64,000 nt of DNA. It comes from Isoptericola jiangsuensis. GTDB taxonomy: Bacteria; Actinomycetota; Actinomycetes; Actinomycetales; Cellulomonadaceae. The notes beneath the pieces were generated by a model. The model was not told where the DNA came from and made no database searches. It worked only from the letters and a program-made list of their open reading frames with translations. Below are positions 12,513 through 59,576 of the stretch, in pieces. Position 1 is the first letter of the stretch; each line of letters begins with the position of its first letter. Position numbers and translations under genes: made by a program. The stretch spans positions 682,001-746,000 of the forward strand of contig NZ_PDJJ01000001.1 of NCBI RefSeq assembly GCF_002563715.1, given 5' to 3'.

Positions 12513-13637
12513 TCAGCGCCCGGTGTGGTGGACGGCGTCCCAGACGCCGAGGAGGTACTGGATGCCCAGCGCACGGTCGTACAGGCCGTAGCCGGGGCGC
12601 GGCTTGTTCGTGGTGTTCTCGTCCCACAGGTGACGGCCGTGGTCGGGCCTGAGGTAGCCGGTGTACCCGGCCTGGGCGTACGCCTTCATGATGCCGACGG
12701 TGTCGACGTCGCCCTCGCACGCCCGGTGCGCGACCTCGGTGAAGTCGCCGTTCGGGAAGTGCTTGATGTTGCGCACGTGCGAGAAGTGGATGCGGTCCAT
12801 GTACGCCTCGACCGCGGCCACCGCGTCGGCCTGCGGGTTCGCCGAGAAGCTCCCCAGGCACAGCGTCAGGCCGTGGTACGGGCTCGGGTGCAGGTCCAGC
12901 ACGCGCGCCAGGTCGTCGTGGGAGGACACCACCCGCGGCCAGCCGAACACGTCGAAGGGCGGGTCGTCGGGGTGCACACCCAGCTTGACGCCCGACTCCT
13001 CGCACACCGGGATCACCGCGTCCAGGAAGTACCGGTAGCTGGCGTACATGTCCTCGTGCGTGACGCCGGCGTAGGCGGCGTTCAGCTCGGTGAACCCGGC
13101 GAGCCGCTCGGGCTCCCAGCCGGGCAGGGTGAGGCCGTGCGAACCGGCGGCCATGTCCGCGATGAGGCTCTCGGGGGTCATGCGGTCCACGACGGCCTTC
13201 TCGAAGTACAGGGCCGTCGACCCGTCGGGCAGGGGGCGCCACAGGTCGGTGCGCAGCCAGTCGAACACCGGCATGAAGTTGTAGCAGACCACCTTCACCC
13301 CGGCCCGGCCGAGGCGCCGGATCGTGGTGCGGTAGTTCTCGATCGCCTCGTCCCGGCTCATCCCGAGCACCGTGCGGCCGAGCTTGATCGACTCGTGCAC
13401 GTTGACCGACTCCACGACGTCGGCGTCGAAGGTGCGCGTGACCCCACGGGCCCGGGCCTCGTCCGTCAGCCCGGTGATGTGCGCGACCTGCGCGTCGATC
13501 TCGGCCTGCTCCCAGACCTCGCCGGCCTGCTTGTGGTGCAGGCTCCACACGATGGTCTCGACGCCCGGCACCTGCCGGACGTGGTCGAGCGTGACCGTGT
13601 CGTTGCCCTCGCCGTACCAGCGGAAGCCCATCTTCAT
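12513..13637 (-). CDS. uxuA: Mannonate dehydratase
   Basis: This 374-residue UxuA-family TIM-barrel enzyme converts D-mannonate to 2-keto-3-deoxygluconate in glucuronate catabolism. Family motifs include MKMGFRWYGEGNDTV at the start, IVWSLHHKQAGE, LGVHPDDPPFD, LTLCLGSF and HFSHVRNIKHF, which carry the metal-binding Cys and His residues. Upstream at about 13661-13680 is an imperfect LacI-like element, GAATCGTTTTC, which may serve as operator; its match to the uxaC/regulator operators is poor. Confidence 0.95.
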   Translation of the reverse strand: MKMGFRWYGEGNDTVTLDHVRQVPGVETIVWSLHHKQAGEVWEQAEIDAQVAHITGLTDEARARGVTRTFDADVVESVNVHESIKLGRTVLGMSRDEAIENYRTTIRRLGRAGVKVVCYNFMPVFDWLRTDLWRPLPDGSTALYFEKAVVDRMTPESLIADMAAGSHGLTLPGWEPERLAGFTELNAAYAGVTHEDMYASYRYFLDAVIPVCEESGVKLGVHPDDPPFDVFGWPRVVSSHDDLARVLDLHPSPYHGLTLCLGSFSANPQADAVAAVEAYMDRIHFSHVRNIKHFPNGDFTEVAHRACEGDVDTVGIMKAYAQAGYTGYLRPDHGRHLWDENTTNKPRPGYGLYDRALGIQYLLGVWDAVHHTGR

Positions 13638-13691
13638 CGCCGTGCTGCCCCTCGGGTAGGTGTGAATCGTTTTCTATCGGCTGCCGCCGCG

Positions 13692-13717
13692 GTGGCCCCG
13701 GACGGGTCCGGGGCCAC
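13692..13717 (-). terminator. Hairpin downstream of uxaC
   Basis: GTGGCCCCGGA (13692-13702) pairs perfectly with TCCGGGGCCAC (13707-13717) around a four-base loop. It lies just past the uxaC stop and before uxuA, so it probably ends or attenuates the uxaC transcript and makes uxuA-aguA a separately promoted unit. Confidence 0.75.
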
Positions 13718-13725
13718 GCGCGACG

Positions 13726-15144
13726 TCAGGGACGCGGGTAGGACGCCAGCGCCGACCGGTACGCGAGGTCGACGGCGGTGTCCACCGCCTCGTCCAGGTC
13801 CAGCCGGTGCTCGGCCACCAGCCGCGCCAGGTAGCCGGCGTCGACGCGGCGGGCCAGGTCGTGGCGTGCCGGGATCGAGCAGAAGGCACGGGTGTCGTCC
13901 ACGAACCCGCTCATGTTCGAGAACCCGGCCGTCTCCGTCGCCGACTCGCGGAAGCGACGCATCGCCTCCGGGGCGTCGAGGAACCACCAGGGCGCACCGA
14001 GCTTGAGCGCCGGGTACACGCCCGCCAGCGGGCCGAGCTCGCGCGAGTAGACGTCCTCGTCGACCGTGAAGGCGATCACGCGGAAGTTCGGGTGGTGCCC
14101 GAACGCGTCCAGCAGCGGACGCAGGGACCGCGTGAACTCCGTGACGACCGGGATGTCGTAGCCCTTGTCCGGGCCGAACGTCGCCGCCGGGCCCGACGCG
14201 TGGTCGCGCAGCACGCCCGGGTGGAGCTGCATGACCAGACCGTCCTCGGCCGACATCGCCGCCATCTGGAACAGCATGTGCCCGCTGAACGCACGGGCCT
14301 CGTCGGCCGTCACCTCGCCCGCCAGGGCGGCGTCGAAGATCCGGCGCGCCTCCGCGTCGTCGAGCGGGGTGGTGTCCGCCCACAGGTGGCCGTGGTCCGT
14401 GGCCCGCGCCCCGGCCTCGACGAACTTCTGGCGCTGCGCGCGCAGCGCGTCCAGGTAGGCGGCGTACGACGTCACGTCCGTGCCGGCGGCCGCGCCGAGC
14501 AGCGCGACCTCGTCCCGCCACGTCGCCCGGTCCAGGTGCAGCAGCGGGTCCGGGCGGAACGTCGGCAGCACGCGCTCGCCGTAGCCGTCCTTCGCCAGGC
14601 GCGTGTGGTCCTCCAGCGACGACCACGCGGGGTCCGTCGTCGCGATGACCTCGATGCCGAACGTGTCCAGCAGCGCCCGCGGGCGGAAGCCCGGCTCCGC
14701 GATGCGGGCCGCGACCTGGTCGTACAGCGCGTCCGCGGTCTCGGCCGACGGGCGCTGGGTCACGCCGAAGATCTCGACGAGCGCGTGCTCCAGCCAGTAG
14801 CGGGTGGGGGTGCCCCGGAAGTGCTTCCATCCCGCGCAGAAGCGGCGCCACACCTCGCGCGGATCGGTCTCCACGGCCTCGTCCGCCGTGGAGCCGACGC
14901 CGAGCCGCGGCAGGGTCTCGCCCTGGGAGACGAGCATGCGGGTCAGGTAGTGGTCCGGCACGACGAACAGCTGCGCCGGGTCGCCGAACGACGTGTCCTG
15001 CGTGAACCACTCGACCGGCACGTGCCCGTGCATCGACACGATCGGCAGGTCCTTCGTCGCCGCGTAGACCTCCCGCGCGATGCCGCGGGTGGTCGGGTCG
15101 GCGGGCAGGGCCCGGTCAGGGTGCAGGGTCCACGGCTCGCTCAC
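13726..15144 (-). CDS. uxaC: Glucuronate isomerase
   Basis: This 472-residue UxaC-family isomerase (amidohydrolase-like fold) interconverts D-glucuronate and D-fructuronate, and D-galacturonate and D-tagaturonate. The metal-binding HxH is seen in MHGHVPVEW (His39, His41). Other family segments are FCSIPARHD and MQLHPGVLRDH. The GTG at 15144 is preferred because GAGGAGAG lies seven bases upstream; the open frame extends about 27 codons further without a ribosome site. A TAGGAT -10 box (15229-15224) and the first UxuR-type operator sit upstream. Confidence 0.95.
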   Translation of the reverse strand: MSEPWTLHPDRALPADPTTRGIAREVYAATKDLPIVSMHGHVPVEWFTQDTSFGDPAQLFVVPDHYLTRMLVSQGETLPRLGVGSTADEAVETDPREVWRRFCAGWKHFRGTPTRYWLEHALVEIFGVTQRPSAETADALYDQVAARIAEPGFRPRALLDTFGIEVIATTDPAWSSLEDHTRLAKDGYGERVLPTFRPDPLLHLDRATWRDEVALLGAAAGTDVTSYAAYLDALRAQRQKFVEAGARATDHGHLWADTTPLDDAEARRIFDAALAGEVTADEARAFSGHMLFQMAAMSAEDGLVMQLHPGVLRDHASGPAATFGPDKGYDIPVVTEFTRSLRPLLDAFGHHPNFRVIAFTVDEDVYSRELGPLAGVYPALKLGAPWWFLDAPEAMRRFRESATETAGFSNMSGFVDDTRAFCSIPARHDLARRVDAGYLARLVAEHRLDLDEAVDTAVDLAYRSALASYPRP

Positions 15145-17918: not shown

Positions 17919-18998
17919 ATGACCGCTGCCCGCCTGCGTGCGCCGATCGCCCTGATCGCCACCCTCTTCCTCCTGCTCCTCGGGGCCGTCTCCGTCGCCC
18001 CCGTCGCCCACGCCGCCGGCGGCGTCACCGCCGGCAAGGGCCACAGCAACGGCAACGCGCAGGAGACCTGCCCGACCGGGGAGGGCTGGCGAAAGTTCGA
18101 ACCTCTCAGCGGCCTCGAGTACACGGCGAAGGCCCCCGACGGATTTCTCGTCGCCGAGGTCTGCGTCAAGTCCGCCAAGGACGTCGACCAGTACCACGTG
18201 GAGCCCCCCGCGGCTTCGGTGACGGTCAAGACGCCCGCTACGAACGCGAATGGCCAGCAGCAGGAGATCAGCCACGTCTCTATCCGGGTGATCCCGGACA
18301 GCGGCGGCTGGTTCTACCCCGCGCCGACCTGCGACGGGCACCTGGTCGTCACCTACCCCGAGGGCCTCTCCGGCAACAACGACGTCAACGTGCGCGTCAT
18401 GGACAACGCCACTCGCGCCACCCAGGACTTCAACTTTCATGCCGACACCGACTACTCCGGCGAGGTCACGTTCGACGTGACGACGCACGCCAAGTGGCCC
18501 GGCTGGACGTCGTACTCCTACGTGTGGGTGCAGGTCGCCGAGACCAACTACCACTGGGAGGGCGTCGTGACGTGCGACGGCACCGAGGTCCCCGAGGAGC
18601 CGCAGCCCGAGCCCTCCACGGAGCCCACGCCGGAGCCCTCGACCGAGCCGTCCACGGAGCCGTCCACCGAGCCCTCCGCGGAGCCCTCGACCGAGCCGTC
18701 CGTCGAGCCGTCGACGGAGCCGTCCACCGAGCCCTCGCCCGAGGTCTCCGAGCCCGTCGCCCCGACCGACGACGAGACCCCCGGCCGCACCGGCCAGAGC
18801 ACCGTCGCGCCGATCGACGACACCGGTGACACCGACGACGTGCGGGCCAACGACGTCCGCGTCGACGCCCAGACCGTCGCCACCGACGAGGACCAGCTCC
18901 CGCAGACCGGTTCCACCGTCCTGCCGCTCGCGCTCGGCGCGCTGCTGCTCGTCGGCCTCGGGGTCGCCGCCGTCGTCGTGGTCCGTCGCCGCGCCTGA
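17919..18998 (+). CDS. LPXTG-anchored cell-wall surface protein, function unknown
   Basis: This 359-residue secreted protein has an N-terminal signal peptide (basic start, hydrophobic stretch [18 protein letters not shown], cleavage near AHAA) and a central domain of about 180 residues that I do not recognise. That domain has paired cysteines ([21 protein letters not shown]). A Glu-Pro-Ser-Thr repeat stalk covers residues about 226-274. The sorting signal LPQTG at 327-331 is followed by a hydrophobic helix and RRRA, so a class E/A-type sortase should attach it to peptidoglycan. No sortase gene is in the window. A GTG at 17901 would add six residues. The central region is less GC-rich than its neighbours. 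Confidence 0.85.
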
Positions 18999-19016: not shown

Positions 19017-19050
19017 GAGGGCCCCGCCGGAGCATTCCGGCGGGGCCCTC
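19017..19050 (+). terminator. Strong hairpin terminator after the LPQTG gene
   Basis: A perfect 15-bp stem (arms 19017-19031 and 19036-19050, GAGGGCCCCGCCGGA and complement) closes a GCAT loop, 18 bases past the stop codon. Confidence 0.88.
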
Positions 19051-19061
19051 GTCGTCCCTGC

Positions 19062-19338
19062 CGCGAGTCAGCGCACCGGCCGCGAGTCAGCGCAGGATCC
19101 CGCGAGTCAGCGCACCGGCCCGCGACTCAGCGCAAGCTTCCGAGGTCGGCCTCCTCGGTGGGGCCAGCCGGCGTCACGAAGGGATTCCGATGACGGACGT
19201 CCCGTGCGCTGACTCGGCGGATCCTGCGCTGACTCGCGGGATCGTGCGCTGACTTGCGGGCCGGTGCGCTGAGTCGGCGGATCGTGCGCTGACTCGCGGG
19301 CCGGTGCGCTGAGTCGGCGGATCGCGCGCCGAGTCGCG
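19062..19338. repeat. 20-bp-period intergenic repeat array A (two opposed arms)
   Basis: Four units begin at 19062, 19081, 19101 and 19121 with CGCGAGTCAGCGCA. After a 70-base spacer, seven units in the opposite orientation begin at 19205, 19225, 19245, 19265, 19285, 19305 and 19325 with TGCGCTGACTCG or close variants. Spacing is exactly 20 bases within each arm, apart from the first unit (19). The last unit ends at the stop codon of the following convergent LacI gene. The remaining 6-7 bases of each unit vary, alternating GGATC- and CCGG-type fillers. No protein product is credible here. Confidence 0.92.
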
Positions 19339-51664: not shown

Positions 51665-51730
51665 ATCGGGAGCCGGTGCCGGGTGGACGACGGTGCCGGG
51701 CCGCCCCCGCGACGTGCCATGATCGGAGAC

Positions 51731-52756
51731 ATGCTCACGCTGCCTGCCGGTGCCGCCGGCTCCCGGATCGTCGGAATCGGGCACCACCAGCCCGACAAGG
51801 TGCTCACCAACGACGACATCGCCCGACTCGTCGAGACCAACGACGAGTGGATCCGCTCCCGCACCGGCATCGTGACGCGCCACGTCGCCGCCGACGACGT
51901 CACCGTCGCCGACATGGCCACCGCCGCCGCCCGGCACGCCCTCGCCGACGCCGGCGTCCCCGCCGACGACGTCGACCTCGTCATCGTCGCCACCACCACC
52001 GCCGCCGACCGGTCGCCGAACACCGCGGGCCGCGTCGCCTACGCGCTGCGCACCGGCGTGCAGCCCGGCGCCAGCACCCCCGAGGGCGAGGAGGAGCCCG
52101 ACCTGCGCGACGTCGTCGGGCCCGGCGTCATCGACGTCAACACCGCCTGCTCCGGCTTCGCCTACTCCCTCGGCCTCGCCGACCAGGCGATCCGGGCCGG
52201 CACCGCCCGCACCGCCGTCGTCATCGGCTCCGAGAAGCTCACCGCCGTGACGGACTGGAGCGACCGCTCCACCTGCATCCTCACCGCCGACGGCGCCGGC
52301 GCCGTCGTGCTCCAGGCCGCCGACACCCCCGCCGTCGGGCCCGTCGTCTGGGGCTCCGAGCCCGAGATCACCCCCGCCGTGCGCATCGAGGCCCCCGCCG
52401 ACCGGTTCGCGCAGGACGGCCGCGCCGTCTTCAAGTGGGCCATCACCCGGGCCGCCGACCGTGCCCGCCGCGTCGTCGAGGCGTCCGGCCTGTCCCTCGA
52501 CGACATCGAGGTGCTCGTCGCCCACCAGGCGAACCTGCGCATCATCGAGCCGCTGGCCAAGGGCCTCGGGCTCGAGGACAAGATCGTCGTCACCGACATC
52601 ACCGAGTCCGGCAACACCTCTGCCGCGTCCATCCCGCTCGGCCTGTCCAAGTGGTGGCACGCCGGGAACGTCCCCGCGGGCGTCCCCGCCCTCCTCTTCG
52701 GTTTCGGCGGCGGCTTCACCTGGGCCGGCCAGGTCGTCATGACCCCCACCCGCTGA
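51731..52756 (+). CDS. fabH: Beta-ketoacyl-ACP synthase III
   Basis: This 341-residue thiolase-fold enzyme condenses an acyl-CoA with malonyl-ACP to start fatty-acid synthesis. The catalytic triad is visible: Cys140 in NTACSGFAY, His in VAHQANLRII and Asn in SGNTSAAS. Compared with E. coli FabH there is an insertion of roughly 25 residues (about 107-131, rich in Pro and Glu) before the active cysteine. An in-frame ATG at 51719 would add four residues. It stands apart from any fab cluster, so a specialised role is possible. Its stop codon lies inside the first unit of repeat array B. Confidence 0.87.
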   Translation: MLTLPAGAAGSRIVGIGHHQPDKVLTNDDIARLVETNDEWIRSRTGIVTRHVAADDVTVADMATAAARHALADAGVPADDVDLVIVATTTAADRSPNTAGRVAYALRTGVQPGASTPEGEEEPDLRDVVGPGVIDVNTACSGFAYSLGLADQAIRAGTARTAVVIGSEKLTAVTDWSDRSTCILTADGAGAVVLQAADTPAVGPVVWGSEPEITPAVRIEAPADRFAQDGRAVFKWAITRAADRARRVVEASGLSLDDIEVLVAHQANLRIIEPLAKGLGLEDKIVVTDITESGNTSAASIPLGLSKWWHAGNVPAGVPALLFGFGGGFTWAGQVVMTPTR

Positions 52757-52866
52757 CTGGCGCACCCGAGCGCTGACTCGCGCCACCGAGCGCTGACTCG
52801 CGGGCCCGGTGCCCGCGAGTCAGCGCTCTTCTGCGCGAGTCAGCGCTGATTCCCGCGAGTCAGCGC
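52751..52866. repeat. 20-bp-period intergenic repeat array B
   Basis: Three units start at 52751, 52771 and 52791 (CGCTGACTSGCG) and three in the opposite orientation at 52814, 52834 and 52854 (CGCGAGTCAGCGC), each exactly 20 bases apart. The first unit contains the fabH stop codon. The core is the same as arrays A and C. Confidence 0.92.
52788..52828 (+). terminator. 18-bp perfect hairpin formed by opposed repeat units
   Basis: GAGCGCTGACTCGCGGGC (52788-52805) pairs perfectly with its complement at 52811-52828 across a 5-base loop. It lies 31 bases after the fabH stop and would fold stably in RNA, so it probably acts as the fabH terminator. Confidence 0.78.
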
Positions 52867-54548: not shown

Positions 54549-54572
54549 TAGAGTGATGGAAAGCGCTTGCCA
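54549..54572 (+). promoter_or_regulatory. -10 box and LacI-type operator of dehydrogenase 2
   Basis: TAGAGT (54549-54554) is a -10 box and TGGAAAGCGCTTGCCA (54557-54572) is a 16-bp palindrome with one mismatched pair, covering the start site. It differs in sequence from the dehydrogenase 1 operator. Confidence 0.8.
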
Positions 54573-54593
54573 CCCTCGATCAGGAGCACGACG

Positions 54594-55952
54594 ATGACGT
54601 CCGCCACCCTCGACGCCGGCCCGTCGGCCGCCACCTTCCCGGCTGCCCGGACGGACGCCCCGCCGAGACGCGCCCGACGCCGGTACGCCGTCGTCGGCAC
54701 CGGGCAGCGCGCCCGCACCTACGTGGACGGCATCGGTGAGCACGCCGACGTCGCCGACCTCGTCGCCCTCGTCGACACCAGTCCCACCCGCCTGCGTCAC
54801 CACGCCGACCGCGTCCGGCTGTCCGGGCGTGCCGAGCCCGCACTGTACGCCGCCGAGGACCTCGACCGGATGCTCGTCGACCTGGCGCCCGACGTCGTCG
54901 TCGTCACGTCACCCGACCGCACGCACGCCGCGCACGTCGCCACCGCCCTCGGGCACGGCGCGGACGTCGTCGTCGAGAAGCCGCTGACCATCGACGCGGG
55001 CGGCATGTACACGATCGCGGACGCCGTGCGCCGCTCCGAGGGACGGCTCACCGTCGCGCACAACTACCGCTACTCGCCGCGCAACGCCGCGCTGCGCCAG
55101 GTCGTCGCGGACGGGCGGCTCGGCGACGTCGTGTCGGTGCACTTCGAGTGGCTGCTCGACGCCGCGCACGGCGCCGACTACTTCCGGCGCTGGCACCGGG
55201 ACAAGCAGTCGTCCGGCGGGCTGCTCGTCCACAAGGCCAGCCACCACTTCGACCTCGTCAACTGGTGGGTCGGCGACGCCCCCGAGACCGTGTACGCCCG
55301 CGGTGGACTCAAGTTCTACGGGCGTCCACAGGACGCCGGCGAGCGGTACGCCCCGGACCTCGCCGCCGACGACGACCTGCGCGCCCTCTACCTCGACGCC
55401 GCGCACGAGGACGGCTACCGCCGCGACCAGGACCCGTTCGCGCCCGGCGCCACCATCGAGGACACCCTCAGCGTGCTCGTCGGCTACCGCGACGGCGCGA
55501 ACCTCACCTACTCCCTCACGGCGCACAGCCCCTGGGAGGGCTACCGGGTCGCGATCAACGGCACCCGCGGCCGCGCCGAGCTCGAGGTCGTCGAACGGTG
55601 CCACGCCACCCCCGGGCTTCCCGGCCGCCTGGGGACGGCCCTGGACGACGGCGAGGCATGCTGCCCCACCCGTCCGCGGGGCGCACGCCTCGTCGTCCAG
55701 GAGCAGTGGGGCACCACCGAGGAGGTGCGGCTGCCGGCCGAGCACGGTCACCGCACCGGTGACGCCGCCCTCCTGCGGGACCTGCTCCGTGGGCACCTCG
55801 ACCCGACGTCCGGCGGCCCGGACGCCGACCCGCTCTCCCGCCGCGCCGGCCTCGTCGACGGCCTGCGTGCCGTCGCCGTCGGTGTGGCCGGGAACCGCTC
55901 GCTCGCGACCGGCCAGGTGGTCCCGGTCTCGGCCCTCGGCACCCGGCTCTGA
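54594..55952 (+). CDS. Gfo/Idh/MocA-family oxidoreductase 2
   Basis: This 452-residue dehydrogenase is a paralogue of the preceding gene. It has YAVVGTGQRARTYV, VVVEKPLT, AHNYRYSPRNAALR, YFRRWHRDKQSSGGLLVHKA and HHFDLVNWW in the same order. An N-terminal extension of about 35 residues (Ala/Pro/Arg-rich) precedes the Rossmann fold. CAGGAG precedes the ATG at 54594. Its own operator differs from that of paralogue 1, so the two copies may answer to different signals. Confidence 0.85.
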   Translation: MTSATLDAGPSAATFPAARTDAPPRRARRRYAVVGTGQRARTYVDGIGEHADVADLVALVDTSPTRLRHHADRVRLSGRAEPALYAAEDLDRMLVDLAPDVVVVTSPDRTHAAHVATALGHGADVVVEKPLTIDAGGMYTIADAVRRSEGRLTVAHNYRYSPRNAALRQVVADGRLGDVVSVHFEWLLDAAHGADYFRRWHRDKQSSGGLLVHKASHHFDLVNWWVGDAPETVYARGGLKFYGRPQDAGERYAPDLAADDDLRALYLDAAHEDGYRRDQDPFAPGATIEDTLSVLVGYRDGANLTYSLTAHSPWEGYRVAINGTRGRAELEVVERCHATPGLPGRLGTALDDGEACCPTRPRGARLVVQEQWGTTEEVRLPAEHGHRTGDAALLRDLLRGHLDPTSGGPDADPLSRRAGLVDGLRAVAVGVAGNRSLATGQVVPVSALGTRL

Positions 55953-55972
55953 CCGCGCGCACCAGGGCCGCC

Positions 55973-56018
55973 CGACGACGGCGGCGAGGCGGCGACGAGA
56001 CCCGCCGCACCGTCGTCG
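55973..56018 (+). terminator. Imperfect hairpin after dehydrogenase 2
   Basis: CGACGACGG (55973-55981) pairs with CCGTCGTCG (56010-56018), with further GGCGG/CCGCC pairing inside. It lies 20 bases past the stop. Confidence 0.55.
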
Positions 56019-56040
56019 TGCACCGTCCGCGACGCCCGAG

Positions 56041-56460
56041 CCCGACGTGCGCCCGGCTGTGCTGACTCACGCGAAGCTGTGCTGACTCGCGCCCGGCTCT
56101 GCTGACTGGCGTCGATGTGCGCTGACTGGCGTCGAACTGTGCTGACTCGCGCCCGGCTGTGCTGACTGGCGTCGAACTGTGCTGACTCGCGTCGAACTGT
56201 GCTGACTCGCGTGTCGGAGCGCTGACTGGAGTCGATGTGCGCTGACTCGCGTTGGGCCGCGCTGACTGGCGGAAGGTCTCCGACTCGGGACGTGAGGAGA
56301 ACGGCGAGGTCGGGGGTCGGGGTGTCCGGGCACGGTCGTCAGACCGGAAGTGGAGGGCCCCCTGGGGCCCGTGAACGCGACCGTGCCCGGACACCCCGAC
56401 CCCCGACCGGACCCACCCGCGCTGACTCGCGCGGCCGTGCGCTGAGTCGCGGGTCAGCGG
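56041..56460. repeat. 20-bp-period intergenic repeat array C with inserted inverted repeat
   Basis: Eleven head-to-tail 20-bp units start at 56061, 56081, 56101, 56121, 56141, 56161, 56181, 56201, 56221, 56241 and 56261, each beginning GCTGACTSGCG or a close variant; a degenerate unit precedes them at 56041. After 140 bases, two more units start at 56421 and 56441, still in the same 20-base register. The last unit runs into the stop codon of the convergent dehydrogenase gene. The 500-base gap contains nothing else except the hairpin at 55973 and the inverted repeat at 56308-56408. Confidence 0.93.
56308..56408. repeat. 31-bp perfect inverted repeat within array C
   Basis: Arms at 56308-56338 and 56378-56408 are perfect complements over 31 bases (the left arm starts GGTCGGGGGTCGGGG). 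The 39-base loop carries its own GGGCCC/GGGCCC stem. No transposase or target duplication is visible. It may be a strong bidirectional terminator or a small mobile palindrome that entered the array. Confidence 0.9.
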
Positions 56461-57599
56461 GCCCAGGGGGTGCCGAGCTCCGTGAAGGTCTGCTGGGTGC
56501 GGGCGACCTGCTCGCACCAGTGCTCGACGTCGCGGACGACGGGGCGGCGGTCGTCGCCGTCGCCGAGCCAGGTGACGGCGTCGTCGGGCACGGGGTGCGG
56601 GTCGGCGCCGGTGCGGACGGCCTCCATGACGCGCATGAAGGCGCCGGTGTCGCGGACGTCGCAGAGGAGGCGGCGGTCGGGGTCGGCGGACGCGCGGACG
56701 TCGAGGAGGTCGTCGAGGAGGGGGGTGCGGCCGTACGTCTTGTCCATGGTGACGCGTTCGGTGCGCAGCACGAGACGGTCGGACTCGTAGAAGAGCTCGA
56801 TCTCGCCGGCGGTGCCGACGACGAGGACGCGGGCGGCGGAGCGGTCCTGCGCGCAGAGGGTGAGGCCGAACCCGTAGCGGGTGCCGTCGGTGGAGGTGAC
56901 GCGCACGGCGGAGGTGTCGTCGGCCTCGATGGGGTTGGCGCGGAACAGGTCGGTGTCGACCCAGGCGACGTCGGCGGCCCGGGTGACGCCGCCGACGAGG
57001 AGGGTGGTGGCGACGGCGTGGGCGAGGGGGTTGGTGACGACGCCGTCGACGACGTCGCGGCCGTCGAGGCGGCGGCGTCCGGCCCAGGGGGCGCGGGCCC
57101 AGTAGCCGGCGGTGCGGACCCAGGTGCCGGCGGCGCCGTACCCGAGGACGTCGCCGATCTCGCCGGCGGCGACGAGGGCGGCGGCGGCGGGGACGGCGTG
57201 GGAGCCGAAGGTCTGGAAGCCGACCTGGCAGAGGCGGCCGGTGGTGTCGGCGATGCCGACGAGCTCGGTGTGCTCGGCGAGGGACGCGGTGGTCGGCTTC
57301 TCGAGGAGGACGTCCATGCCGGCTTCCATGGCGGCGCGGGCGAGGGGGAGGTGGGTGGGGATGGGGGTGGAGAGGACGACGACGTCGGGGCGGTCGTCGT
57401 CGGGGGCGGAGAGGAGGTCGCCGAGGGTGGGGTACCAGGGGGTGCCGGTGCCGTGCGCGGCGTGCCCGGGGCCGGGCTCGCGGGGGTCGACGACGGCGGT
57501 GAGGCGGGCGCGGCCGGGGCGGGCGAGGTCGAGGGCGTGCTGGACGTGCTTCTCGCCGTGGCCGTGGATGCCGACGACGGCGATGCGGGCGGGGTTCAT
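56454..57599 (-). CDS. Gfo/Idh/MocA-family oxidoreductase 3
   Basis: This 381-residue dehydrogenase has RIAVVGIHGHGEKHVQHAL at the Rossmann start, LLEKPTTASLAEH as the EKP motif and a C-terminal domain with WVRTAGYW. It is in an operon with the upstream PmoA-like gene, a pairing seen in sugar-derivative loci. GAGAGAG precedes the ATG at 57599. It is clearly different from the two paralogues at 53008 and 54594. Confidence 0.85.
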   Translation of the reverse strand: MNPARIAVVGIHGHGEKHVQHALDLARPGRARLTAVVDPREPGPGHAAHGTGTPWYPTLGDLLSAPDDDRPDVVVLSTPIPTHLPLARAAMEAGMDVLLEKPTTASLAEHTELVGIADTTGRLCQVGFQTFGSHAVPAAAALVAAGEIGDVLGYGAAGTWVRTAGYWARAPWAGRRRLDGRDVVDGVVTNPLAHAVATTLLVGGVTRAADVAWVDTDLFRANPIEADDTSAVRVTSTDGTRYGFGLTLCAQDRSAARVLVVGTAGEIELFYESDRLVLRTERVTMDKTYGRTPLLDDLLDVRASADPDRRLLCDVRDTGAFMRVMEAVRTGADPHPVPDDAVTWLGDGDDRRPVVRDVEHWCEQVARTQQTFTELGTPWAR

Positions 57600-57612
57600 C
57601 TGCTCTCTCTCG

Positions 57613-58572
57613 TCAGCGCAGCCGGGCGGCGAGCGCGGCGGCTTCGTCGGCGTCGAGGGCGTGGTCGAGGAGCGCGGCGACGACGCCGGTCTCGACGGTG
57701 CCTCCGGCGGGGACGTGCAGGGGGGTGTCCCAGGCGAGGGCGGGGCAGGCGCCGGGGTACTCGTGGGCGCGCAGGAACCAGGGCCGGGTGGGGGTGGGCT
57801 GGGTGAGGAGGGTGGTGGTGGTGCGTTCCTCGCCGCGGGCGTCGCGGTGGACCTGGACGAACGCGACCCAGGGGGAGGTGGAGCCGTGGGCGGCGTCCTC
57901 GCCCTCGCCGTCGGCGGAGAGCACGCGGGTGTCGGGGGTGAGGGGGAGGCGCCAGAACACGCCGCCGTACCCGGCGCCGGGGCGGCCGTTGGTGGCGGGG
58001 GAGCGGAACTCGAGGGGGCCGTGCTCGGCGTGCAGGGTGGAGCGCCATTCGAGGACCCAGCCGTCGTCGAGGAGGCGGGCGCCGACGCGGCGGCGTTCGG
58101 CGAGGACGGGGGCGCCGTGCTGGTCGGTCCAGGTGACGGTGTCGTGCAGGACGTGGGGCGCCTTGGGGTCGACGGTGGTGCTGGTGGACGTCTGGCGGCC
58201 GTGGTTGGGCAGGAGGGTGGGGCCGACGTCGGTGACGTAGGTGCGTCCGCCCCAGTAGCTGGTGCCGTTGACGTCGGGCACGGCGATGCTGACGCCGTAG
58301 TGGTGGCGGTGGTCGACGGGGCCGGCTTCGGTGAGGGGCACGCCGTCGAGGGTGTGCACGGGGTGCAGGTAGGGGCGGGGGGAGTGGATGGTGGGCAGCG
58401 CGTCGCCGGGCTCGTAGCGGGACAGGGTGACGCGGTCGCCGGGGCGGCGCAGCACGGGTACGCCGTTCTCGATGCTCCAGGCGGGGGTGTGCGCGGCGGT
58501 GTCGGCGGTGTCGGCGGTGTCGGCGACGACGGGTGCGGCGGCGGGTGCGGGTGCCTGGACGGCGGTCGGGGG
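57613..58572 (-). CDS. PmoA-family (DUF6807-like) protein, no start codon of its own
   Basis: The reading frame encodes about 300 residues of a PmoA-family protein (VDHRHHYGVSIAVPDVNG, YWGGRTYV and the terminal beta-sandwich). Despite the family name, these are thought to act in carbohydrate metabolism, not methane oxidation. No good start codon or ribosome site lies at its 5' end: the first in-frame GTG is inside the domain at 58455. The linker upstream (Ala/Pro/Asp/Thr-rich) runs directly back into the LacI coding region in the -1 frame. It is best read as the C-terminal half of a LacI-PmoA fusion interrupted by a one-base shift at the G5 run 58568-58572. Confidence 0.7.
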   Translation of the reverse strand, partial: PPTAVQAPAPAAAPVVADTADTADTAAHTPAWSIENGVPVLRRPGDRVTLSRYEPGDALPTIHSPRPYLHPVHTLDGVPLTEAGPVDHRHHYGVSIAVPDVNGTSYWGGRTYVTDVGPTLLPNHGRQTSTSTTVDPKAPHVLHDTVTWTDQHGAPVLAERRRVGARLLDDGWVLEWRSTLHAEHGPLEFRSPATNGRPGAGYGGVFWRLPLTPDTRVLSADGEGEDAAHGSTSPWVAFVQVHRDARGEERTTTTLLTQPTPTRPWFLRAHEYPGACPALAWDTPLHVPAGGTVETGVVAALLDHALDADEAAALAARLR

Positions 58573-59576
58573 ACGGGGCCGGTGCTGGCCCGGACCTCGA
58601 GCCGGACCCCGAAGCGGGTGGTCTCGGCGGCGCCGGTGGCGTTCTCGATCACGGTGTGGAGCTCCCTCCAGGCGTGGCGGCCCAGGTCTTCCTGGGGGAC
58701 GGCCACGGTGGTCAGGCCCGGGGTGGCGAACCGGGCGAGTTCGATGTCGTCGAAGCCGCACACGGAGATGTCGGCGGGCACGGCGACGCCGGCCTCGTTG
58801 AGCGCGGCGAGGAGCCCGAAGGACACGAGGTCGTTGAAGGCGACGGCGGCGGTGACGCGGCTGGCGAGGACGGCGGGGGCGGCGGCGTGCCCGGCGGCGA
58901 TGTCGGAGCCGGTGGGGACCTCGACGATCTCGAGGTCGGGGTGGGTGGCGCAGCAGTCGGCGAGGCCGCGGCGGCGGGCGACGTCGGACACGGAGGCGGG
59001 CGGTCCGGCGAGGTAGGCGATGCGCCGGTGGCCGTGCTGCACGAGGTGCTCGACGACCTGCACGGCGGCGTCGGCGTAGTCGACGACGAGGCTGGGTGCG
59101 CCGCGCGCGACCTCGCGGTTGACGACGACGACGGGGGCGACGTCGGGCAGGAGGGCGTCGAGCGCGGCGTCGGGCATGCGCGGGGAGACGAGCACGAGGG
59201 CGTCGCAGCGGGCGCGGGCCTCGCGGGCGAGGGCGGCCTCGGCGCCGGGGTCCTCGGCGGAGTCGGCGACGAGGACGCGGTAGCCGTCCTGGCCGGCGGC
59301 CGACGAGACGCCGCGCAGGATCTGCTGGAACACCGGGTTGCGCAGGTCGGGGACGACGAGCGCGACCGTCGTGGTGCGGCCGAGCGAGAGGCTGCGGGCG
59401 ACGTTGCTGGGCCGGTAGTTGAGCTCGATCGCGGCTTCCTGGACGCGGGCGGAGATCGCCGGGTCCACGGTGCTGCGGCCGTTCATCACCCGGGACACCG
59501 TCGCGCGGGAGACGCCGGCCGCCTGGGCGACGTCGGCGATCGTCACGGCAGGACGGCGTGTGGTGGTGCCGGGCAT
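58569..59576 (-). CDS. LacI-family regulator, continuing out of frame into PmoA-like domain
   Basis: The first 335 or so residues are an intact LacI/GalR regulator: helix-turn-helix VTIADVAQAAGVSRATVSRVMNG, hinge SNVARSLSLGR, and an effector domain ending at VRLEVRASTG. GGAGG lies six bases before the ATG at 59576. No stop codon follows the effector domain: the frame stays open through the next region as low-complexity sequence. The end given here is the point where a -1 shift would enter the PmoA frame. It probably represses the divergent ABC importer through the AACCGGTT sites. Confidence 0.75.

Follow-up and report, generated by a model that had tools for sequence, protein, structure and literature searches.

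Phased 20-bp arrays and a capped hairpin at gene ends in Isoptericola: a candidate two-part boundary element

REP/BIME elements with RAYT are multi-copy, extragenic and species-specific, include hairpins and lie at the 3′ ends of genes and between convergent genes; passages of PMC3733652 define the REP itself as a short (20–40 bp) palindrome with a GTAG or CGTC tag at one end. The sites of Noc and SlmA (NBS and SBS, respectively) occur at tens of loci per chromosome and are rare opposite the origin, and excerpts of PMC4726725 describe both as unevenly distributed, with arrays placed in the terminus delaying division. DUS dialects, found in Neisseriaceae, are short motifs, uniform per genome, respelled in related species and linked to gene ends and terminators; in the portions of PMC3630211 that bear on them they are conserved within species, associate with terminators as inverted pairs and are common inside genes. 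Intrinsic terminators likewise place a hairpin downstream of the stop codon, with T-enriched first positions after the stem, while TAACTGA repeats of Beggiatoaceae and staphylococcal STAR elements, going by partial accounts, form many intergenic direct-repeat arrays per genome.

The elements described here, from Isoptericola jiangsuensis and its relatives (G000 denotes the source genome, G001–G017 the congeners compared with it, and L numbers the compared loci), have traits in common with REP/BIME, Noc/SlmA sites and DUS and fail a defining feature of each, and for this reason we regard the composite of array and hairpin as a categorically new element; among the papers listed by our literature searches none, as judged by its title, describes it. 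Like REPs they are dispersed, multi-copy, extragenic and located at gene ends, but the unit is a directional core rather than a palindrome, arrays fold like shuffled sequence, units keep a 20-bp step and the hairpin stems vary between copies. Like Noc and SlmA sites they are rare in the terminus region (as inferred from parS, and more weakly for the units of G012 and G017), but by position counts the unit is not a palindromic site, units are arrayed at 20 bp and tied to gene ends, and the binding protein is putative. Like DUS they have one dominant spelling per species, different between species, with ten one-mismatch pairs of the other core in G012; they are, however, arrayed and almost never genic, instead of being single or inverted-pair sites common in genes. 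The hairpin differs from intrinsic terminators in its mostly 28–33 bp stem, conserved asymmetric internal loop, second covarying stem and lack of a U-run, and the TAACTGA repeats and STAR elements, as far as those partial accounts go, are set apart by sequence alone. Our reading, to which we give a probability of about 45%, is that array C of the locus below belongs to a genome- and genus-wide set of two-part gene-end elements that would form a boundary between transcription units.

Array C and its neighbours in the window

The window, a 64-kb stretch of the G000 chromosome, holds three arrays (Table 1). In array C the original prediction saw eleven units at an exact 20-base step, and all eleven are recovered as matches to GCTGACTSGCG with at most one mismatch, at 20-bp intervals starting at 56061 and 56081 and ending at 56261. 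The two distal units were likewise correctly placed in register after a 140-base gap, their cores starting at 56421 and 56441 and the 20-bp register being kept over 160 bp. Spacers are often common to neighbouring units. Exact 20-bp same-strand neighbours number 18 in the window, against 0 in 60 dinucleotide shuffles of it. The location between convergent genes also holds, with the first unit starting 109 bp past the end of the left gene (55952), and the stop codon of the minus-strand gene (56454–56456) starting 2 bases past the last plus-strand core.

Table 1. Features of the array C site and the other arrays of the window (window coordinates)
Feature	Position	Strand	Description	Basis
Array A	19062..19338	both	four - units, then + units; flanked by convergent genes	
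Array B	52752..52864	both	three units on the + strand followed by three on the - strand	
Gfo/Idh/MocA-type oxidoreductase gene, left neighbour	54594..55952	+	Pfam PF01408/PF02894 (ORF 54567-55952)	Pfam, gene prediction
Array C	56061..56271	+	eleven units, core GCTGACTSGCG, exact 20-bp step	pattern search
Capped hairpin	56308..56408	+ (strand of covariance model)	between unit 11 and unit 12	
Two distal units	56421..56451	+	hairpin on one side, - gene on the other; second unit GCTGAGTCGCG	
Degenerate unit	56448..56458	-	1 mismatch; includes stop codon of the right-hand - gene	pattern search
Gfo/Idh/MocA-type gene, right neighbour	56454..57599	-	longer ORF 56454-59576, residues 664-927	Pfam, gene prediction

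The gap itself had been taken for seven replaced or degraded units, a proposal we abandon, as the gap holds a hairpin of a separate family and, of seven hairpins with same-strand units on both sides, a single one keeps the register, the distances being 186, 160 (array C), 190, 157, 277, 147 and 158 bp. The structure is 101 bases long, with a perfect 31-bp inverted repeat (56308–56338 and 56378–56408); the outer stem encloses a conserved internal loop, CGGAAGTGGA ... GTGAACG, and the inner stem is GGGCCCC/GGGGCCC. It corresponds to covariance-model match G000:C1:738313-738399 (E 7.5e-20), with a fold z of -9.4 and -8.8 on its two strands. At the same site in G012 the hairpin is kept, with five units and two degenerate in-register units to its left and none to its right, unit number in the arrays turning over quickly.

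The plus-strand units of array A lie at 19208, 19228, 19248, 19288 and 19328, two of these five having 2 mismatches, and in array B the TGA stop of gene 51719–52756 sits inside the first unit. Just before array A, after an LPXTG-type gene, window positions 19018–19056 carry an ordinary GC hairpin followed by TCGTCGTCC, a tail that resembles the one seen past capped hairpins. The gene for an LPXTG-anchored protein contains coding repeats of 12, 24 and 48 bp at 18597–18743.

Step, core and spelling of the arrays

To describe the arrays genome-wide we used a systematic G000 sample of 41 stretches totalling 864 kb (the 64-kb window together with 40 stretches, each 20 kb long and spaced at 100-kb steps), in which 20 array clusters with 166 units were found; gene context throughout is based on gene calls from our own simple codon-usage script, not an established gene finder. 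Among 230 same-strand next-unit distances of up to 62 bp in all G000 DNA analysed, 188 are exactly 20 bp and 227 are multiples of 10 (27 of 40 bp, 6 of 10 bp, 5 of 60 bp and 1 of 30 bp), the remainder being 19, 37 and 41 bp, once each; such a fixed step fits the phased protein binding that had been proposed. The 20-bp step accounts for 33 of 40 distances in G012. With a different core it makes up 58 of the 66 distances in a 400-kb sample of G001 and 21 of the 24 in a 400-kb sample of G017, and in each of these four species no other step is as frequent. That the step survives a genome-wide change of the repeat sequence implies that something reads it. Within arrays the core stays and the spacer drifts: a core lying between two good units 40 bp apart has 92.9% consensus identity in G000 (153 triples) and 93.1% in G012 (111 triples), and the 7-nt spacers are identical to each other in 51.4% and 50.8%, respectively. 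At L033 (about 13628–13728) the same core recurs at every 10 bp, with overlapping units, within an otherwise 20-bp array.

Arrays sit at gene ends. The expectation that they occur at convergent ends is borne out for 11 of the 20 clusters and not for the other nine, of which eight are in tandem gaps and one is in a divergent gap. Counted by unit, the G000 sample has 88 in convergent gaps (15.3 kb in all), 72 in tandem gaps (64.8 kb) and 5 in divergent gaps (28.9 kb), with 1 of 166 inside a gene, and both unit orientations occur 3′ of genes. Units in G001 and G017 (400-kb samples) are convergent in 47 and 30 cases, tandem in 38 and 2 and divergent in none, with one genic unit in G001; the G012 sample of 17 stretches has 40 convergent, 8 divergent, 2 tandem and 1 genic. 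The excess of divergent (8) over tandem (2) units in G012 counts against our reading.

The array would act at the level of DNA rather than RNA: the fold of its first 140 bases in array C is no stronger than that of shuffled sequence (z -0.71 and +0.43), and units in either orientation stand 3′ of genes. Pairing within the variable spacer was considered and set aside, being weak at best (the highest enrichment, between positions 12 and 17, has a z of 3.2). A stop-codon trap, in which each unit carries TGA or TAG at a step that is not a multiple of 3, was dropped because, by eye, this stop is missing from antisense-oriented units, those of array A among them.

Judged by counts of 20-bp pairs, there are two related cores, GCTGACTSGCG and CGAGGTAG, the latter extended by letters that depend on the species, and the dominant core is not the same in every species. 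Pairs of GCTGACTSGCG (up to 2 mismatches, forward and reverse) number 412 in G000, 384 in G012, 29 in G002 and 2 in G001, with 0 in the remaining 54 of 58 genomes searched, including 14 other congeners; a reversed control gave 47 in G000 and 0–2 elsewhere. The second core, first met as a lag-20 signal beside hairpins of other species, aligns with the complement of the GCTGACTSGCG core (CGAGTCAGCGC against CGAGGTAGYGC). Its pairs (up to 1 mismatch) are abundant, at 25–431, in 11 of the 18 genus genomes (G001 431, G016 279, G008 267, G017 256, G006 212, G007 201, G004 175, G014 161, G015 134, G011 76 and G010 25) and few in the others (G012 10, G013 3, G003 2, G005 2, G000 1, G009 1 and G002 0), the reversed control giving 1 match summed over all 18. 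The letters 3′ of this core are CGAGGTAGCGC in G001 and CGAGGTAGGCAAC in G017, uniform within each species' sample. In G012 the ten one-mismatch CGAGGTAG pairs (CGAGGTAGTAC...) stand alongside the usual GCTGACTSGCG arrays, several of them as close inverted pairs.

Four 10-kb stretches of G013 and G009 contained no clustered 20-bp repeats. At G003 locus L112 (2210–2279), a pair of TCCGTTCGGCA units and an inverted pair, both with the 20-bp step, lie shortly past an apparent stop codon; TCCGTTCGGCA gives only a hint of a possible third core, because a 7-base version of the pair is in no other of the 291 loci compared. Searched against a named genome collection, from which G000 and its very near relatives may be absent, the exact pair pattern was found only in Isoptericola sediminis and in one Natronomonas contig, the latter an archaeal sequence (L032, 2353–2383) with a lone exact two-unit match. 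The I. sediminis matches are two in number and coincide in contig coordinates with two of the G002 matches.

Taken together, the rigid step, conserved core, drifting spacer, lack of an RNA fold in the array and species-differing core indicate a DNA-binding reader. The units are most likely helically phased sites, each of about 13 bp and set at the 20-bp step, for a putative DNA-binding protein whose specificity would change together with the core, and the arrays as a whole look like an undescribed set of putative protein docking sites.

The capped hairpin family

The second part of the element, present at some arrays, is the capped hairpin, which would fold as RNA or single-stranded DNA. A loop-pattern search (18 of 58 related genomes positive for the exact pattern), then a 40-copy alignment, led to a covariance model with which genomes were searched. 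In the 40 aligned copies 98.1% of 1154 cells are paired, and both sides have changed in 289 cells compared with 75.1 in shuffles; the stems thus vary between copies yet stay complementary around the conserved internal loop. At sites shared by G000 and G012 (16 comparisons, in which two G000 hairpins share one G012 partner and 3522951 is maybe not strictly orthologous) both partners have changed in 55 base pairs, one partner in 19 and neither in 374, and without 3496054 and 3522951 the changes are 33 both-sided and 17 one-sided, so that these stems evolve largely through paired change.

The model finds 58 copies in G000 (57 with E <= 1.5e-8), 57 in G012, 28 in G017, 14 in G013 and 4 in G001, and the hairpin is present in 18 of 18 genus genomes examined. 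A wide distribution was rejected: under stricter filters the hairpin occurs in 38 of 200 family genomes (6 of 25 genera), 9 of 297 order genomes, two of the nine being weak, and 1 of 396 phylum genomes, G000 alone. Membership of a known Rfam family was likewise discarded, with no match to the hairpin at gathering score. At five loci, four of which have hairpin copies, the only gathering-score matches were tRNA, msiK and SAM, elsewhere in those loci, and window positions 55953–56453 gave 16 matches, all below gathering score, the best being microRNA precursors via the long stem. A phage or plasmid origin found no support in 0 phage matches and a single 57-bp plasmid match inside a coding gene, and four viral contigs in which the loop pattern occurs exactly lack complementary outer arms (by eye).

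Our own hairpin detection in the loci compared gave 120 rows, of which 12 with a short stem or absent loop motif were removed; of the 108 left, 42 belong to G000, against 57 by the covariance model in that genome. Arrays and hairpins are only loosely coupled, 14 of these 42 having no array within 600 bp, and 8 of the 20 array clusters of the G000 sample having a hairpin within 600 bp and 12 none. A neighbouring gene is in common with a hairpin of another species for 25 of the 42. In G008, near-identical hairpins with common flanking units at different places (L099, L116, L161 and L166) suggest recent copying of the composite.

The hairpin also sits at gene ends. Among 103 copies with both neighbours, 70 are convergent, 17 and 15 are in the two tandem contexts and 1 is divergent; five further copies are inside predicted ORFs. 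Convergent hairpins lie a median of 46.5 bp from the stop of the right gene and 190 bp from that of the left gene, 58 of 70 being within 100 bp of the nearest stop, and the 17 tandem copies lie a median of 37 bp from the stop of the nearest gene, a pattern that the 15 in the other tandem context do not fit. As in intrinsic terminators, then, a stable hairpin stands shortly 3′ of the stop codon. Read along the near gene, T follows the hairpin in 70% of copies at +1 and 49% at +2 (105 copies), without a real U-run, compared with 28% and 11% after the stem of ordinary gene-end hairpins (n=85), and in its T-enriched tail and closeness to the stop the hairpin resembles the near gene's terminator. 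The evidence on which strand is folded conflicts. Stem mismatches favour the model strand (73 events of types tolerated on that strand against 23 on the complement), which also has the stabler fold in 65 of 108 copies, whereas the T tail and proximity to the stop favour the complement.

The gene-end position together with the hairpin suggests a boundary or terminator. The hairpin, mostly less than 100 bp from a stop codon, most likely serves as transcription terminator or boundary at that gene end, and arrays and hairpins together would form the boundary where transcription units meet.

Chromosomal position and competing explanations

Composition skew in sampled G000 stretches gave no clear origin or terminus, so the terminus is here only the point inferred to lie opposite parS, with quarters running from parS outward. 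Sites that we take to be parS-like, from a motif we assumed to represent parS, are found in G000 at 48–53 kb, in G012 at 2.67 Mb, in G017 at 3.57 Mb, in G001 at 3.30 Mb and in G013 at 0.32 Mb. Hairpin loci by quarter are 19/17/10/1 in G000, 17/20/11/2 in G012, 5/11/8/2 in G017 and 1/1/2/0 in G001, with last-quarter deficits of p = 2e-5, 9e-5, 0.026 and 0.32, respectively (the weakest matches, G000 397013 and G012 2284153, as well as G017 118764 being omitted and the G017 length rounded), and in the fragmented G013 assembly approximately 3/2/7/1. Units by quarter are 64/56/17/0 in 220/244/200/200 kb of G000, 43/31/12/0 in 100 kb each of G001, 7/23/0/2 in G017 and, in the small and uneven sample of 17 G012 stretches, 16, 0, 31 and 4 in 80, 40, 100 and 120 kb. 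Arrays with exact pairs occupy at least 44 loci in G000, 12/20/10/2 by quarter among the matches listed, which run to near 3.83 Mb. Arrays are thus sparse or absent in the quarter opposite parS, clearly in two species and more weakly in two.

The last quarter of G000 is not short of convergent gaps (41/35/29/28 by quarter in 220/244/200/200 kb; 16/10/6/7 when only gaps of 90 bp or more are counted), ordinary gene-end hairpins (14/116, 32/118, 18/83 and 21/89, or 0.12/0.27/0.22/0.24) or genes shared with the relatives compared (31/168, 35/194, 27/156 and 50/166, or 0.18/0.18/0.17/0.30); convergent gaps in G001 number 21/12/16/19. A boundary role alone leaves the sparsity opposite parS unexplained, because ordinary gene-end hairpins are not sparse there, and the rarity suggests a role at the scale of the chromosome. 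Lone hairpins are mainly oriented opposite to the replication fork, 32 against 7 in G000 (p 7e-5) and 33 against 13 in G012 (p 0.005), two counts that are not independent because sites are common to both; this polarity is not seen in G017 (14 against 11 leaving out hairpin 1291956, 14 against 12 with it) or G001 (1 against 3). Hairpins less than 1 kb apart are always ordered minus then plus (9 pairs in G000, 5 in G012 and 1 in G017), and units to the right of a hairpin share its orientation in 94 of 94 cases (G000 and G012), while the left side has both.

A selfish or drifting repeat would offer a different account, in which non-autonomous composites spread by copying of hairpin and units, the species core stems from recent spread and gene conversion, and the position bias reflects tolerance. 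The four alike G008 loci, the unit turnover at the array C site and the spacers common to neighbouring units all fit it, yet the core constraint and rigid step are unexpected for drifting tandem copies, the gene neighbours that 25 of 42 G000 hairpins have in common with those of other species count against it, and a search with a motif that we assumed to mark the Y1 (RAYT/IS200-type) transposase (PF01797) found none in the 18 genomes searched, of which 12 (G000 among them, but not G012–G017) belong to the genus, compared with 5 positives among 14 known genomes used as control; on balance we find it doubtful. Membership of the REP/RAYT group fails because the 12 genus genomes searched have no Y1 transposase, although passages of PMC3733652 state that CGTC-type REPs are likewise not associated with RAYT. 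It is very unlikely that the units are transcribed and act with the hairpin in mRNA 3′ ends: they do follow stop codons, the hairpin covaries as a structured RNA would and the units to its right have a single orientation, but the array strands fold like shuffles and both unit orientations occur 3′ of genes. Most improbable of all are species marks of the uptake-signal kind, read by a competence receptor as DUS are, for while the dominant core differs by species and the letters after it are uniform within a species' sample, the rarity of genic units contrasts with the abundance of DUS in genes described in portions of PMC3630211, the units form phased arrays, and rarity opposite parS would not be expected.

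The distribution along the chromosome would instead be accounted for if the sites gave a chromosomal address, a bound protein marking the origin side while the terminus side stays nearly free of it, as with Noc or SlmA sites, so as to time division or organise the nucleoid, with gene ends merely the places where sites are tolerated. The last-quarter rarity of hairpins and units, the G000 controls and the G001 convergent gaps argue for it, as does the NBS and SBS precedent of uneven distribution and delayed division given in excerpts of PMC4726725. Known NBS and SBS are palindromic, however, whereas the units here are directional and arrayed; the unit counts of G012 and G017 are uneven, the hairpin distributions of G017 and G001 are weak alone, the reader protein is putative and the terminus is the point opposite parS. 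We consider this reading unlikely as it stands, and the same holds for its fullest form, a hitherto undescribed actinobacterial chromosome-address system of hundreds of helically phased sites, rewritten between species along with a fast-changing protein, that would label three quarters of the chromosome on the origin side, with hardly any sites on the terminus side, and be anchored at gene ends, in part beside capped terminator hairpins.

Whichever role the two-part gene-end elements have, the capped hairpin, strongly covarying and with no Rfam match at gathering score, would constitute a new structured family even if the arrays prove selfish. The species-specific cores provide a natural experiment through which to identify the reader, which would be a protein with contact residues that vary along with the core. 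To our knowledge, no nucleoid-occlusion protein has been established for this bacterial group, and for that reason, were the address role true, sites that are seldom found opposite the origin would open a direct route to the timing of division or the organisation of the chromosome.
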